Shown: one piece after another, positions 32,453-52,481 of the stretch
How positions within the stretch are numbered: position 1 is the first letter of the stretch
Layout of the letters: every line of letters starts with the position of its first letter
NCBI RefSeq assembly: GCF_028728065.1
Contig: NZ_CP117811.1
Coordinates: 558,001 to 622,000 of the forward strand
DNA: 64,000 nucleotides
DNA from: Lentisphaera profundi
Lineage (GTDB): Bacteria > Verrucomicrobiota > Lentisphaeria > Lentisphaerales > Lentisphaeraceae
Reading direction: 5' to 3'
Translations under genes and position numbers: made by a program
Notes under the pieces: generated by a model
Database searches by the model: none
Told to the model about the DNA's origin: nothing
What the model saw: the letters and a program-made list of their open reading frames with translations, nothing else

Positions 32453-32626
32453 CTATTAATTTGGCGACAATATAGATTGAATCTATGAGTTAAATTAAAG
32501 GACGTCATCTCAATCTAATTCATTGCTGGATTAATAGCTTAGAGACATGAAAATCATTATATATAAAAAAGGGGGCATGATTTACACCCTCGGAGAGGGT
32601 GAATGTACTTAGCCTGGGGTGAAGCC
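32453..32626. repeat. Hairpin-rich tandem repeat, copy 1, left part (split by IS)
   Basis: Non-coding. It matches the left half of copy 2 (34796 onward) with few differences: the shared order is TATAGATTGAAT, TTCATTGCTGGATTAATAGC, the hairpin CACCCTC-GGA-GAGGGTG and TGTACTTAGCCTGGGGTGAA. The match breaks exactly at 32626, where the IS begins, and resumes at 34644 beyond the target duplication. Confidence 0.85.
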
Positions 32627-32656
32627 CTGGCTTTTATACACTTTTTTGAAGGGCTA
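32627..32656 (+). repeat. Left terminal inverted repeat of the IS
   Basis: Pairs with 34605-34634; one mismatch in 30 bases. The transposase stop codon is 3 bases inside it. Confidence 0.95.
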
Positions 32657-32658
32657 GG

Positions 32659-34194
32659 TTAAAAGATATTTTGAGGATTATTTTGCAGTTCATTTAACAA
32701 GTCTTTGTGTTCTTGTTGAAATTGCAATACGGTCAAGACATCCATCATACCCCTGGATAAAATTGTTGAACCAATGGGGTCTCGCCTTCGTCCTAACCAA
32801 CCGCCTCTACGAGCGATAAGAGCAAAGAGTCTCAAATTGATGTCGATCTTATCATCATTTGGGTGTTTCATGGCTTCTTTGACTTTATGGTATTCCTCAT
32901 CGTCGAGAGAAGCTGATTGACTAATACCCGCAAGACTTCGGAGTTTCATGGTCATTTGAGCTGCAATAGTTATTAAAACTAGGTAACGGGCGACTTTGGA
33001 AGCTGAATTATAGCGTGCTTGCTCCAATTTATAAGTGGTCTTTAAGAGGCGAAAAAATTCCTCAATTTTCCACCTCAATTCATAAATTTTTCCAATATAG
33101 GTCATTTTTTCTAAGGTATCTACATCCCTGTTTGTAAAAAGAATCCACAACAAAGGTTCTTCACCTTCAGGAGGGTTAAGTTCTTTGATAACAACTAAAT
33201 TGACATCTACTGCTTGCGGGGTTTTTATATATTTATGATTTCGTTTGGCCTGACGATATAAGCTGATTGGTACACTGCCTATATGTAATTGCGCGTTACG
33301 TTTAGCATTTATCTGCTCCGTTACTCGACCGCGTCCATCTAAGGGCAATTCCTTATAAGGACTGAGTGGGATATACTTGATAAGTTCACTAATTTTTGTA
33401 CAGACATATCCATCTTTCATGGGATGTCCACCCTGTTTTTTTACAAGAGCGGATTCAGGTAACGCGTCAAAATTTGGTGTTTGAACATTCCGAATACTCT
33501 TGGCTCGCAGTACAAAATCATGGTTTTTATCCATCGTGGCTAACATGATAAAAATATCATCAAACTCCCGATCTCCTACATGAATTGGGTTCCACTCTTT
33601 CAAGTGCTCTGCACTAGCGCGAATATGAGAGACCATTTGGTGTTTATGGTTTTCTTTGATTTCTTCTAAATCATCTGTGCTCAGATATTTCTTCAGATAC
33701 GAATCTGAATAATCCACCATATCCACATCGTCAGGCCCATCACAGTTAACTAGACAATCGTGAAGAACGCCTAGGACACCTCCATCACTTGGGTTGACCG
33801 CAAGGTTACAAACATACTCATAACCTTTCCCTTTGCCGTCACCAATAGCTCGTCGATCTTCCTTGGTAGTGTGATGATAATAGTCTAATAATGAAATATC
33901 GTTCATGACTAGTACATCACTTCCTTTGGGGTGATGTGCTAAGCTGAGCTCACGACGAAAACTACGCAAAGCCTTTAAACTAATATTTTCATTATCCATA
34001 AAACGATACGTAGAAATAACTTCACTCCAAGGAAGAGTACTTGGGGACCTACCCGCTATTTGACATGATGATCCCGTAGGTGAGTTGCTATATAGCTCCA
34101 GCTGACGTAGAAAAGCCTTCTTCGTAGAAAGATGTTTCATCCCAACTTTTTGAGCAAGTTCATGCCATAGCTCCAGTTCTTTTTCCGCTATCAT
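32659..34194 (-). CDS. IS4-family DDE transposase
   Basis: A protein of 511 residues from ATG 34194 (514 from GTG 34203). The IS4 YREK signature (Y-x2-R-x3-E-x6-K) is plain in YELRWKIEEFFRLLK near residue 385. The first catalytic Asp is probably in MNDISLLDYYHH near 102, and VGDREFDDIFIML near 215 is the usual second Asp region (GDRE). The layout, including the N-terminal DNA-binding part, resembles the IS50/Tn5 branch. ATG 34194 is preferred because GGAAGG lies 8 bases upstream. No frameshift or internal stop. Confidence 0.95.
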   Translation of the reverse strand: MIAEKELELWHELAQKVGMKHLSTKKAFLRQLELYSNSPTGSSCQIAGRSPSTLPWSEVISTYRFMDNENISLKALRSFRRELSLAHHPKGSDVLVMNDISLLDYYHHTTKEDRRAIGDGKGKGYEYVCNLAVNPSDGGVLGVLHDCLVNCDGPDDVDMVDYSDSYLKKYLSTDDLEEIKENHKHQMVSHIRASAEHLKEWNPIHVGDREFDDIFIMLATMDKNHDFVLRAKSIRNVQTPNFDALPESALVKKQGGHPMKDGYVCTKISELIKYIPLSPYKELPLDGRGRVTEQINAKRNAQLHIGSVPISLYRQAKRNHKYIKTPQAVDVNLVVIKELNPPEGEEPLLWILFTNRDVDTLEKMTYIGKIYELRWKIEEFFRLLKTTYKLEQARYNSASKVARYLVLITIAAQMTMKLRSLAGISQSASLDDEEYHKVKEAMKHPNDDKIDINLRLFALIARRGGWLGRRRDPIGSTILSRGMMDVLTVLQFQQEHKDLLNELQNNPQNIF

Positions 34195-34223
34195 TTTAAT
34201 CACCTTCCATCGATTGATTTATA

Positions 34224-34271
34224 TTGAAATAATTACCGATATCACTATAGTGATATCGGTAATTATTTCAA
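34224..34271. promoter_or_regulatory. 48-bp perfect palindrome forming a mirrored bidirectional promoter
   Basis: The two 24-base arms (34224-34247 and 34248-34271) are exact reverse complements with no spacer. Reading right: TTGAAA at 34224-34229, then 16 bp, then TATAGT at 34246-34251. By symmetry the same promoter reads left, with -35 at 34271-34266 and -10 at 34249-34244, so the two -10 boxes overlap at the centre. Predicted start points near 34258 and 34237 give leaders of about 34-43 bases for the DUF6788 and transposase genes. The boxes are seen; promoter function is inferred. Confidence 0.8.
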
Positions 34272-34291
34272 CGAATAAAAGGGGCTTTATA

Positions 34292-34627
34292 ATGAGTAAA
34301 ACTGATCAGGAAATAAAAGCACGAATCGAAAGAATAAAACAGGAAATCTCTGAACTAGGAGAACTCCGACCTGGAAGTATTTCACAACAATATAATGTGT
34401 GTGGAAACCCCAGCTGTAAGTGTAAAGACAAGCAGGATCCCCAAAAGCATGGGCCATATCATAAGCTTAGTTATAGGAGAAAAGGCAAAGGATATACACA
34501 GTTCATAAAAGAAGCAGATCTACACAATGTTTCAGAGCAAATTCACAACTATAAAAAACTTAAACAATTGACTGGTGAATGGATAGACCTTTCCCTCGAA
34601 TTATTAGCTCTTCAAAAAAGTGTATAA
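34292..34627 (+). CDS. DUF6788-like IS accessory protein
   Basis: A 111-residue protein carried by the IS. It has an N-terminal coiled-coil helix, the motif RPGSISQQYNVCGNPSC followed by CKCKD (a small Cys cluster that may bind metal), then HGPYHKLSYRRKGKG and a C-terminal helix. I recall this pattern as DUF6788, often seen next to transposase genes; its role is unknown. ATG 34292 is chosen over an upstream non-ATG frame because AAAAGGGG lies just before it. The stop codon is inside the right inverted repeat, so the gene belongs to the element. Confidence 0.82.
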   Translation: MSKTDQEIKARIERIKQEISELGELRPGSISQQYNVCGNPSCKCKDKQDPQKHGPYHKLSYRRKGKGYTQFIKEADLHNVSEQIHNYKKLKQLTGEWIDLSLELLALQKSV

Positions 34628-34634
34628 AAGCCAG
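34605..34634 (-). repeat. Right terminal inverted repeat of the IS
   Basis: Reverse complement of 32627-32656 with one mismatch. It overlaps the last codons of the DUF6788 gene. Confidence 0.95.
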
Positions 34635-34643
34635 GGTGAAGCC

Positions 34644-34795
34644 TCAGGTGGAAAAATACATTATAAATTTCGTCCTCGACGAGGGCGAATTAATTGACCA
34701 TCTTCGACGATCTAATGATGGATAATCAATTCCTTGGGAGTGGGCTTCGCCGTCCCCCCAAGGCTAAAAACATAAGGCATCTTCGAAGCTATTAA
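34644..34795. repeat. Hairpin-rich tandem repeat, copy 1, right part
   Basis: Continuation of the copy begun at 32453, after the IS and its target duplication. It contains TCCTCGACGAGG and a larger CCTTGGGAGTGGG / CCCCCAAGG hairpin and ends at CATAAGGCATCTTCGAAGC. No coding potential seen. Confidence 0.85.
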
Positions 34796-35115
34796 TATAG
34801 ATTGAATCTATGAGTCAAATTAAAGGTCGTCATCTTATGTCTAATTCATTGCTGGATTAATAGCTTAGAGGCCTAAAAATCATTTTTTTTGAAAAAAGAG
34901 GGCATGATTTACACCCTCGGAGAGGGTGAATGTACTTAGCCTGGGGTGAAACCCCAGGTGGAAAAATACATTATAAATCTCGTCCTCGACGAGGGCGAAT
35001 TAATTGACCATCTTCAATGATCTAATGATGGATAATCAATTCCTTGGGAGTGGGCTTCGCCTTCCCCCAAGGCTAAAAACATAAGGCATCTTCGATGCTA
35101 TTATTTTGGCGACAA
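34796..35115. repeat. Hairpin-rich tandem repeat, copy 2 (320 bp, intact)
   Basis: Full unit from TATAGATTGAATC to the base before the next TATAGATTGAAT. Four hairpins are visible: CACCCTC-GGA-GAGGGTG, CCTGGGG-TGAAA-CCCCAGG (34940-34958, the uninterrupted form of the IS target), TCCTCGACGAGG and CCTTGGGAG...CCCCCAAGG. Base-paired positions are preserved between copies more than loops, which hints at structured RNA or a folded mobile DNA unit. No open frame. Confidence 0.88.
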
Positions 35116-35185
35116 TATAGATTGAATTTATGAGTCAAATTAAAGGTCGTCATCTCAATCTAATTCATTGCCGGATTAATAGCTT
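35116..35185. repeat. Hairpin-rich tandem repeat, copy 3 (first 70 bp only)
   Basis: Matches the first 70 bases of the unit, to GGATTAATAGCTT, then the similarity stops abruptly at about 35185. Confidence 0.85.
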
Positions 35186-35827
35186 CATCAAATGGTAGGG
35201 ATTTTAGTACTTTGAGCTCGAAGAGCTTCAGCAAGGTAGCCATGGACCTAAGTCCGTGGTGTTGGAATAACAAAAACATGCGTGCCGAAGGTACGCGGCA
35301 GAGTTTATCCTTAAGCAAAAACATAACTTTTCCCGATTAAGTAGATAAGCTATGTTTAATGCAGCTTTTTAGGTGAACTGCACCGATAGAAATTAGTGTA
35401 CACCCTAAAGTGTATGACTAAGTTACTAAGGGCCCAGCATTGGTCCTAATGAGTGGGAACTTAAAAGTATTTATATCTGCGGTTAACTTTTTTAGTAGGG
35501 CCCCGAGGGCTCCTCGGCCACCGGAGGTATTTATACTGGGGCTCCGACCCAAACTTCACTTAAGGTTCTGCTGTACGGGCCAGTGATTTTTATCCGGCTG
35601 TGTGGCAACACCGCTTAAGAATCCCTACACTCGGAGCTTCGCTCCAAGGCTTTACCGTCATACCTTCGGCATGAATATCATTTTTTTAACAATACCCCCG
35701 GATAAATCCGGTGGCTACCCTACTACATACCTTCGGCATGCGCTTAAGTTCCCACCCATTAGCATGGGTCCGAAACTCTATGTCGAACTCAGCTGAACGA
35801 TATCTCCTTGATTCTAGTTAATCAAAA
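35186..35827. other. Non-coding hairpin-dense stretch
   Basis: About 640 bp without a credible gene. Many short stems with TTCG-type loops are visible, for example GGAGCTTCGCTCC, CATACCTTCGGCATG (twice, near 35660 and 35727), CCGGATAAATCCGG and GGACCTAAGTCC. GTGGGAACTTAA near 35453 is the inverse of TTAAGTTCCCAC near 35744, which would close a large arch of about 300 bp. The one open frame (35602-35796) follows these stems and is not protein-like. It could be a decayed element or a structured RNA. Confidence 0.55.
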
Positions 35828-48883: not shown

Positions 48884-48936
48884 CTCTAACGACCGAGATT
48901 AGTGAGATTTGAGCCTAAGCGAGAATCTTCACTGCA
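48884..48936 (-). repeat. attC site P, left half (split by IS110-type element)
   Basis: Consensus from CTCTAACGACCGAGATTAG through GAGCCTAAGCGAGAATCTTC to ACTGCA at 48936, then unrelated DNA. The missing end, GCTCATGGTTAG, is found at 50877-50888. Confidence 0.88.
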
Positions 48937-49019
48937 CATACTATTAGAGAACTTTAAAATTTCAGTAAGATAAGCTTGAGCCATATATTTCCTCCCCAGG
49001 ATGAAAAAAAAATGGAAAG

Positions 49020-49055
49020 GAGTGTCCGTCGAAAGCATCTCCTTTCCTAACCTGT
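49020..49055 (+). other. Hairpin in the left end of the IS110-type element
   Basis: GGAAAGGAG and CTCCTTTCC pair (9 bp) around a 16-base loop about 30 bp before the transposase start. It may regulate transposase expression or belong to the recombination end. Confidence 0.5.
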
Positions 49056-49082
49056 AAGAGAACAAATCTAAGTGAGGTTAGT

Positions 49083-50399
49083 ATGAAAGTAACAGAAAAA
49101 ATCGTAGAAGTCAATGCCAACCATATCCTAAACATCGGTGTAGACGTCTCTAGTCGAAAATTAGATGTCCATTTTGAATGTGCATTACAAATCAATAAGC
49201 GTGAAGTCTATCGTGAGCAAATAAAAAATCGAAGTGATGAGATAGAAAAATCACTTAAGAAATATTTATCAGTAGCTCAAACTAAAGGATTCTTGAATCT
49301 AAGAATTGTGTGTGAACCTACGGGCCCATATTCGATTAATCTCTTAGCGATGGCCAAGCACTTGAACTGTCTTACTGCCTATGTCAGTGGCGAAGCCGTA
49401 AAGAACTCCAAAGTTATTGAGTTTAATGGAACTAATAAAAATGATCTAGTTGACGCAGAAGTTATCAATAGCTTAGCCGAGCGTAATAAGGTACTGATTC
49501 ATCGGACATATTCTGCTGAATATACGCGTTTACGAATTCTCAATAGTCATTACGAAGATATTGATAAAGCTTATGTGTCTAGCCGAAATCAAGTTCATAG
49601 TACCCTGAAGCAGCTCTGGCCCGATTGGTCGAGTAAAAAATCTATACTGTACTCTCGAACAGGTGAGGCACTCTATAAATGCTACGGCCTTAATCCCTGG
49701 AAAATAGTTAGCCATAATTACTCATATTTTGCAAAGCGTATGAGAACTCACTGCAAAGGTGTGTGGTCATCAACCCTCAAACAAATCTATCGTGATGCTG
49801 AACTGAGCGTCAAAGGTCATTGCTCGGACGCTTCAAGTACTTTGGAATCAATTTTAGGAGATCACTACGAGAACTACTTACGTGGAAAGCAGCGTAAAGC
49901 GAGTTTAAAAGATGAGATGAGTGAGATATTAAGTGAGATCCGACAAGAAGATCCCCGTATCCCTCAAGCACGTAAAAACTTCATTTCCGAGTTTCATATA
50001 GCAAGACTCTTGGCTGAAACAGGTCCGCTCAGTGATTTCAGTAATCTTGATCAGCTAAATAAATATCTAGGACTCAATCTGCGAGAGCGTCAAAGCGGTG
50101 ATTATCAGGGCAAGGTACGCTTAAGTAAACGCGGGCGTTCCTTAGCACGAAAGGTGCTATCATTAGTGACCTTATCTTTAGTAAGAAAAAAACATCTTTA
50201 TGGTCCAGATTATCACCGTATCAAAACAGAGAAAGATAAGCCAGGTAAATTGTTAATGTGCATTTTTATGAAGAAATTTCTGAAGTCATTTTTTGGCATA
50301 TATCGAAGTAATCAAAGCTTTGACCCGAGGCGCCTCTTTATCGATCGAGGGAAGTATGAAAAGTTGAACTCGCCAATAGCTCTCGAAGCCGTTATCTAA
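49083..50399 (+). CDS. IS110-family DEDD transposase
   Basis: A 438-residue transposase. The N-terminal RuvC-like domain starts NIGVDVSSRKLDVHFE (first Asp of DEDD) with CEPTGPYSINLLAMA and NKNDLVDAEVI supplying later acidic residues. The C-terminal Transposase_20 domain has LLAETGPLSDFSNLDQLNKY and the Ser-containing GKVRLSKRGRSLARKVL. Members of this family recombine DNA guided by a structured RNA from the element. Reads opposite to the cassettes. Confidence 0.95.
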   Translation: MKVTEKIVEVNANHILNIGVDVSSRKLDVHFECALQINKREVYREQIKNRSDEIEKSLKKYLSVAQTKGFLNLRIVCEPTGPYSINLLAMAKHLNCLTAYVSGEAVKNSKVIEFNGTNKNDLVDAEVINSLAERNKVLIHRTYSAEYTRLRILNSHYEDIDKAYVSSRNQVHSTLKQLWPDWSSKKSILYSRTGEALYKCYGLNPWKIVSHNYSYFAKRMRTHCKGVWSSTLKQIYRDAELSVKGHCSDASSTLESILGDHYENYLRGKQRKASLKDEMSEILSEIRQEDPRIPQARKNFISEFHIARLLAETGPLSDFSNLDQLNKYLGLNLRERQSGDYQGKVRLSKRGRSLARKVLSLVTLSLVRKKHLYGPDYHRIKTEKDKPGKLLMCIFMKKFLKSFFGIYRSNQSFDPRRLFIDRGKYEKLNSPIALEAVI

Positions 50400-50876
50400 A
50401 ACCTTAAACAAATATATTAAACCGCAAACACCGCGCAACTAAACTAAATAGGACTCTTACAATTTATCAGTTTACCTACATCAAGATGACCACCATGAGA
50501 TTATCATTCTCTATTTGAGAAATGATCACCACTGCACAATTCCTGTCACTTGGTGTAGGCCTTTTTTACATGTTCTGAAAAGTATGACCGATGGTCGAGA
50601 ATCGACACATCCTAATGGGTAGACTCGTCAGTGAAAAGGACTTTCTGAAATCTTGTTTTAATCCCTCTAAAATCGAAGTATATCTCATGCGATAATTCAA
50701 ATATCATAGAAGAAATAGACTGTTAGGTTCTTGCCCTTCGGGACATTTAGAATTTGTCCGAACTGCTAAAAACTAAGGTTTTTTTTTAAAGACAAAAGCA
50801 AAATCTACTCTGCCTCATTTACTAAGAAAAACGATTCTTTTTTAGCAACTCGCTTGGCAAAAGTAGTCTTAAGATA
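50400..50876 (+). ncRNA. Predicted bridge/seeker guide RNA region of the IS110-type element
   Basis: Non-coding and hairpin-rich. ACCATGAG at 50492-50499 equals the left half of the attC target read on the minus strand, and CACTGCA at 50530-50536 is the complement of the right half. They flank the hairpin ATCATTCTC-TATTT-GAGAAATGAT (50503-50526). A 5' guide equal to one target strand and a 3' guide complementary to the same strand is the published order for target loops of IS110-type guide RNAs. Ends of the RNA are not determined. Confidence 0.68.
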
Positions 50877-51244
50877 GCTCATGGTTAGTCTTTTGTTTTT
50901 TCATTATTTCGTCTATTAATTTTTCATCTTCTGGAGTGATATGTCGTGTTTTCTCATCTCTCCATTTAAAGACATTTACTTTTTCTTTGAATTCACCATC
51001 TTTTGAATAAACATCTATACGGTAAAGAGGCATTACATGACCTCTTTCATTTTGTTTTAATCGTGTATAATTATTGATGAACTCAATTAATAATTTTTTT
51101 TCCTTCATCATTCAAATGTACTTCAGGATATCTTTCTGCAGTTTCAAAATCTAATTTTGTTATTTTCAGATTCACATCGTTATGATTATATTTTCCACAT
51201 GAAATGAGGCACATGATTAGAGTTATTGTAAATATTATTTTCAT
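50869..51244 (-). pseudogene. Lipoprotein cassette gene, frame broken at an A8 run and tail altered by the IS
   Basis: From ATG 51244 a lipoprotein signal (MKIIFTITLIMCLISC) leads to LDFETAERYPEVHLNDEGKK and then a stop. The continuation, LLIEFINNYTRLKQNERG to the end, is in the next frame. With seven instead of eight A (T-run 51094-51101) the two join into one protein of about 125 residues. The last codons run into the IS, stopping at 50869; before insertion the frame would have met a TGA within the attC. Either a real indel or a sequence error. Confidence 0.6.
50877..50888 (-). repeat. attC site P, right half
   Basis: GCTCATGGTTAG, the missing R''-side end of the site interrupted at 48936. 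It joins without loss to the left half to give a full consensus attC. Confidence 0.85.
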
Positions 51245-51686: not shown

Positions 51687-52481
51687 ATGAAACGTTATTT
51701 AGATTTAGAAAGTGATTTATGTTTTTATAATGTGATCATCAAGGTGCCAGATAATACTTTTGGCAATCGTGCTTATGCTTTTAATTCCACCCACAAGAAG
51801 CGGCTGAAAGAGATCATTTTTTACATAGAAAGGGTCTATGAACTTAAATGTTTGTATTACACGATAATGAGTACCAATGCACACTTTATTATCTACTGTA
51901 ATCGAGATTCCTTGGATAACTTGAGTTTAAAAGAGGAGGCTCTACATGAACAAGAATATCGTGGGCGAAAATATACTTTGGATGCGAGAACTTGCGAAGT
52001 GCGCAAATTTAGGACTGGGCTCAATGATTTAAGTGACTTTCTGGGGAATTTAAAAAAGCGTTTTACACGCTGGTATAATTGTCAGGATGAAAAGCTTAGG
52101 TGAGGACAACTCTTTAACCACACTTTCAAATCAATTTTACTCAAAGATACAAAATCTCTGATTCGCTTATGCAATATATAGAAATGAATGCGGTTCGAGC
52201 CACGATGGTTAAACTTCCACAAGAATACATCATGGTCAGATATACTTAAGCATAATAATAGAGGCAATCGAATTAAGAGAACTATTATTTTCTTTCTGCG
52301 TCAGTTTAATGGGGGAATGAATCGAATGACGAATGCACAGGTGTTTAAGGTAGATTCTTATAGGCTCAAGTTAGTAACTAGAGTACTAACTGAATTAAGC
52401 GATTTTAAAAAAATTGAGAGAAGCGTAATCGACGAACTCTTGCAGCGCGATGTGAAATGGAGCAGGGGAAAGTTTGTTTAA
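51687..52481 (+). pseudogene. Decayed IS200-like / REP-associated (RAYT) transposase gene
   Basis: The first frame (51687-52103) reads as a Y1-type transposase: CLYYTIMSTNAHFIIYCN stands where the HUH motif should be (family MSNHFHLL), with one His lost, and NDLSDFLGNLKKRFTRWYN is typical of RAYT proteins. The match continues in other frames: FKSILLKDTKSLIRL, QYIEMNAVRATMVKLP and then WSDILKHNN in the frame ending at 52481. At least three frame breaks, so it is not functional. It lies just outside the cassette array. Confidence 0.75.

Follow-up and report, generated by a model that had tools for sequence, protein, structure and literature searches.

The window analysed here, a stretch of 64,000 nucleotides from Lentisphaera profundi (contig NZ_CP117811.1, positions 558,001 to 622,000 of the forward strand), contains an element of the IS110 family of insertion sequences that is 1,940 bp long (48937-50876, + strand) and that cuts exactly through one attC site of an integron cassette array. 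Comparison of the sequence with its relatives makes it very probable that this is a bridge/seeker-RNA element, and that the guides of its RNA have been rewritten across the lineage to follow the attC of each host. This reading rests on the exact insertion into attC, the same position in relatives, an RNA fold that covaries, target guides that covary with their targets and a predicted transposase fold like that of IS621. The original prediction, made from the letters of the stretch, had proposed RNA-programmed targeting of attC, and the same-bond relatives, the conserved fold and the guide-target covariation lend this proposal support.

The boundaries of the element are defined by the attC that it interrupts. 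The attC arm TAACGACCGAGATTAGTGAGATTTGAGCCTAAGCGAGAATCTTCACTGCA breaks off at 48936 and GCTCATGGTTAG picks up again at 50877, coordinates that had been predicted and that hold against the sequence. When the flanks are rejoined, ...AACGACCGAGATTAGTGAGATTTGAGCCTAAGCGAGAATCTTCACTGCA+GCTCATGGTTAG is identical to an intact attC in the same genome (locus L078), and the insertion is therefore exact, save that one A is common to both junctions and leaves the cut ambiguous by one base (alternative 48936-50875). The left part of the interrupted site, a member of the attC repeat family ending in the left target ...TTCACTGCA, occupies 48887-48936, and the right part, at 50877-50888, consists of the right target GCTCATG plus the core GTTAG, as comparison with intact sites confirms. 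The empty-site comparison, together with homologous copies that have the same ends, indicates an insertion without target duplication that is site-specific and oriented. The cassette open reading frame (ORF) to which the interrupted attC belongs (50869-51111, - strand) now has its stop codon inside the right end of the element, and the function of this attC is presumably lost on insertion.

Relatives, with transposases 31-84% identical to that of the element, are found in a range of bacteria. The nearest lie in G004, a genome of the same genus, with one full copy (84% identical protein) plus two copies cut by contig ends that are possibly halves of one. Copies with 31-40% identity are present in the same class (G130, G319, G293, G417 and G411), in another Verrucomicrobiota class of the same phylum (G274, three copies), in an unclassified marine biofilm bacterium (L062) and in metagenome bins assigned to Neomarinimicrobiota (L057), Nitrospira (L058) and Desulfobulbaceae (L059, L063), the taxon names of these last four being bin labels, which can be wrong. 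Scans of viral contigs with the transposase alignment and of genome contigs with the protein alone gave no match. In the relatives the right end closes with A, and the flank beyond it has 7 bp before GTT (before GAT in G274b), the exceptions being L057 (6 bp), L062 (end not resolved), G411 and G293. Insertion of other copies at the same attC bond had been named as a check on the original prediction, and this bond is found in other genomes: it is the same wherever attC is readable (two or three copies in G004, L058, G417 and G274c), and the right-side flank is consistent with it in G130, G319, L057, L059, L063 and G274a/b. The contig of G417 (L046, reverse strand) provides an empty-site control, as it also carries the uninterrupted attC CCGCTGAAGTGATTGGTTA nearby. 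Ten loci have an opposite-strand ORF, resembling those of cassettes, that stops between -14 and +29 bp from the right end; a stop codon so near places the element of these loci in the attC arm by the end of the cassette gene, and in opposite orientation to it. One of the G274 copies adjoins an integron integrase gene.

What, then, would direct the element to this bond? The non-coding right end, predicted at 477 bp and verified at 50400-50876, holds two short segments that correspond to the two halves of the target. The 5' target guide, ACCATGAG (50492-50499, + strand), is complementary to the top strand of the right target, and the 3' target guide, CACTGCA (50530-50536, + strand), equals the top strand of the left target at 7/7 positions and hence pairs with the bottom strand, so that the top-strand complement lies 5' of the bottom-strand match. 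Both positions had been predicted, and such a pair arises in 46 of 200,000 mononucleotide shuffles of this right end, about 2e-4, a pair being scored wherever some 8-mer complement of the right target had some 7-mer from the left target no more than 75 nt downstream. Across the elements the 5' guide matches its own right target (8 nt) at 65/80 positions, as against 45 with permuted targets (p 1e-4), and with near relatives excluded the figures are 54/64 and 36 (p 1e-4). When whole non-coding ends are scanned, with no choice of segment, the association persists (p 3e-4 for 8 nt and 0.002 for 9 nt) and the opposite-strand control shows nothing (p 0.92-0.95). The left guide follows its own target more weakly, with p 0.02 in seven elements. 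The covariation of guide with target that the original prediction had looked to is strong for the right-target guide and weaker for the left. Within the Lentisphaera profundi genome 10 of the 19 listed sites carry CACTGCA, the sequence of the guide itself.

The guides sit at a fixed place in a predicted RNA structure. The target-binding arm (50475-50559, + strand; folding z-score -4.0) comprises an outer stem (50475-50485/50549-50559), a bulged A at 50486, an inner helix (50487-50490/50545-50548) and an internal loop in which the two guides flank a hairpin at 50503-50526, the last as predicted and as verified against the sequence. Twelve right ends share this arrangement of long stem, one-base bulge, short inner helix and a loop of guide, hairpin and guide, with L059 fitting less clearly (z -1.3). 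The inner helix has 4 bp and is canonical in 52/52 cells of a hand alignment of 13 elements, even as its sequence changes from UGAC/GUCA to UCAU/GUGA, CGCU/AGCG or GGGC/GCCC. In a model-fitted alignment of the stem, which is biased towards the model and contains one weak match (E=0.62), 13/15 pairs are compensated and 96% are paired; 0/500 shuffles are as good, and slid controls reach 35-44%. The RNA model R1, trained on seven sequences including that of the Lentisphaera profundi element, matches this training member at 50475-50586 with 95 bits, and also finds four elements outside the training set at the expected positions (L057, 2e-9; G293, 1.5e-5; G411, 0.001; G417, 0.016). Across nine genomes R1 gives no match at E<=0.001 other than in these elements, and Rfam holds no family matching the right-end RNA. 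The fold proposed for checking is conserved around 50475-50559, with strong covariation; the RNA is presumably transcribed, and would be bound and used by the transposase.

The transposase gene (49083-50399, + strand) encodes a DEDD transposase/recombinase of 438 amino acids (aa), with Pfam matches above cut-off to both DEDD_Tnp_IS110 (4.9e-19) and Transposase_20 (3.9e-14), and an NCBIfam match to NF033542 at 7e-34, yet under its equivalog cut-off. The AlphaFold2 model has a mean pLDDT (predicted local distance difference test score) of 81, and its top Foldseek matches among solved structures are the bridge-RNA complexes of IS621 and ISCro4 (E about 6e-12). In the 5' untranslated region of the gene, folding places a hairpin GGAAAGGAG...CTCCTTTCC at 49014-49047 (+ strand). 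Hairpins between left end and transposase start recur in several relatives (including L038, L058 and L066) with little sequence similarity, their z-scores being -4.2 in G274, -3.4 in L058, -2.8 in G411, -2.0 in the Lentisphaera profundi element and -1.0 in G130; such a leader hairpin may limit expression driven by outside transcription.

A second RNA arm (50560-50639, + strand), again placed by folding, is the candidate for donor binding. Within it AAAGTATG (50579-50586, + strand) is complementary to the left-end CATACT (48937-48942, + strand), a hexamer conserved in relatives which would form the donor half read by the RNA. The original prediction had offered AGTATG (50581-50586) as a weak hint of a donor loop, and this is now strengthened, as it lies inside the conserved AAAGTATG, which shifts with the left end in two relatives (G417, AAAGTAGG/CCTACT; G293, AAAATATG/CATATT; p 0.009). 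A segment resembling the right end, CTAATGGGTA (50612-50621, + strand), is the candidate 3' donor guide. The element probably forms a circle, in which TTGGCA (50854-50859, + strand) would meet CATACT at a distance of 17 bp across the junction ...TTAAGATACATACTATTAG, the two serving as candidate -35 and -10 hexamers of a junction promoter. A TTGAC-like hexamer lies near the right end of most relatives, and in most elements the joined ends would bring it to about 14-18 bp ahead of the hexamer at the left end; a junction promoter of this kind has been reported in circles of IS1111 and IS110 elements (PMC11187229).

Taken together, these features suggest a mechanism in which an RNA from the 3' non-coding end would direct the choice of insertion site by the transposase. 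In the target arm the 5' guide would pair with the top strand of the right target and the 3' guide with the bottom strand of the left target, while the second arm would recognise the ends of the element itself once they are joined. Both arms would then steer the circle to a point 7 bp from the AAC/GTT core, in the attC arm nearer the gene, and the transposase would come to run against the direction of the cassette genes. Across related lineages the guides differ in step with the local attC, and position and orientation are kept.

The element lies in a cassette array of about 39.2-51.1 kb, composed of short minus-strand ORFs with attC-like repeats between them and with no integrase gene near it; elsewhere the genome has four integron-integrase genes above the TIGR02249 cut-off. 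The motif TGCNGCTCATGGTTA occurs at 70 genome sites at <=1 mismatch, compared with 3 in the control, and these sites lie mostly in three arrays that adjoin integrases (C1:649-653k, 1.889-1.914M and 2.782M-end/221). There is one copy of the element in the genome, so that many possible targets, some 70 attC-like sites, stand beside a single copy. Two types of attC, ...CTTCACTGCA... and ...ATTCCTCTGCA..., occur together in individual genomes of this genus (L033, loci L067-L095), and the elements are found in both. A generic attC scan, based on the core motif and arm duplex energy, gave no discrimination. At the edge of the array, 51687-52103 encodes a 138-aa ORF that by eye resembles a REP-type (repetitive extragenic palindrome, Y1) transposase, without a Pfam match. 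Further away, at 32453-35220, direct repeats of 136, 88 and 63 nt surround a minus-strand gene for a 514-aa DDE transposase and a 137-aa ORF.

Several observations weigh against an RNA-guided, attC-specific element. The copies in G411 (L066) and G293 (L037) lie outside recognisable attC, though their guides fit their flanks (6-7/8), and they may be natural redirections to non-integron targets. In G004 the left guide CAATGCA is mismatched at 2/7 positions to its target CTCTGCA and is nearer to the other attC type; of the sites listed for that genome 13/15 read CTCTGCA and 2/15 CACTGCA. The 5' guide matches at 5/8 positions in G130 and 6/8 in L058 and G417, and the guide segments were first chosen by eye. 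R1 misses the RNA of G274, whose fold was assigned by hand, and the match of the 3' donor guide to the right end is not significant, with p of 0.04-0.38 depending on the length tested.

Could the element simply belong to the IS1111-attC group already described (ISKpn4, ISPst6, ISPa25 and ISPa21)? The bridge/seeker RNAs of IS110/IS1111 elements, including those of the attC-targeting ISKpn4, ISPst6 and ISPa25, have been described (PMC11187229, PMC11208160), and everything observed points to the same mode of action in the present clade. The IS1111-attC group shares with the element the attC of gene cassettes as target, a non-coding region downstream of the transposase gene and a top-strand complement before the bottom-strand match (PMC11187229). 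Membership is nevertheless improbable. The transposases of the present clade have 424-443 aa as opposed to 330-350 in IS1111. In the conserved IS1111 motif GL-P----S(T)G (PMC11187229) the clade replaces the Pro, usually by Leu, with GLNLR...SG in most and GLNI or GLNLI in others. The sub-terminal inverted repeats of IS1111, 7-17 bp and usually 11-13 bp, have no significant counterpart here, the longest exact repeat being 4-6 nt and no better than shuffles in 8/9 elements, with 7 nt in L058. Finally, ISKpn4, ISPst6 and ISPa25 have common guide matches, whereas in this clade the guides vary with the host attC. The clade is compared here with the published description of the group. Of the earlier placement among IS1111 relatives, the guide order and the downstream non-coding region thus stand, and the long transposase, the absence of significant inverted repeats and the Pro-to-Leu change speak against it.

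A further explanation is that the transposase itself reads attC DNA, as sequence or as folded hairpin, with the guide-like matches being chance or captured attC remnants. Protein-only target choice occurs in other insertion sequence families, and attC sites are both structured and conserved. This is nonetheless very unlikely, given that the guide matches occupy a fixed structural position across several phyla and change with the target, that the opposite-strand control is empty, and that in the two elements whose sites are not recognisable as attC the guides correspond to the sites occupied. A chance single insertion by an element with no attC preference, to which the lone copy among so many similar sites might point, has a negligible probability, contradicted as it is by the copies in independent genomes, which share both the bond and the orientation.

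The reading as an RNA-guided element with rewritten guides gives the clade a wider interest. Nature would here have produced a set of matched guides and targets at a single functional site, from which one could work out how guides pair with targets in RNA-guided recombinases whose RNA lies downstream. Integrons beyond the Proteobacteria would also be seen to have a parasite of their own, apparently guided by RNA, and by disrupting attC it may lock cassettes in place.

How does this clade compare with the other known systems? IS621 and ISCro4, of the IS110 group, share the predicted protein fold and an RNA of two arms, with a target loop and a candidate donor loop, but their RNA is in the left end rather than the right, their guide order is reversed and their protein is about 100 aa shorter. 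The longer IS110 transposases (a 395-455 aa subgroup; Bacillota L064, L065, L097 and L098) share the protein length and a long downstream non-coding region, and L064/L065 also the GLNLRE..SG motif, but these Bacillota relatives differ in their left end, GCATTCCTGTA, in having no R1 match and in showing no attC in the flanks read. Whether the clade forms a lineage of its own among bridge-RNA recombinases, typical of neither IS110 nor IS1111, which has specialised on integrons in several phyla and rewrites both guides to track attC drift, with bond and orientation held constant in the attC arm by the cassette-gene end, is an evenly balanced question. Targeting of attC by the IS110/IS1111 superfamily is already known from the IS1111-attC group; what appears to be new here is a distinct lineage in which the transposases are long, inverted repeats of the IS1111 type are not significant and the rewriting of guides is documented.
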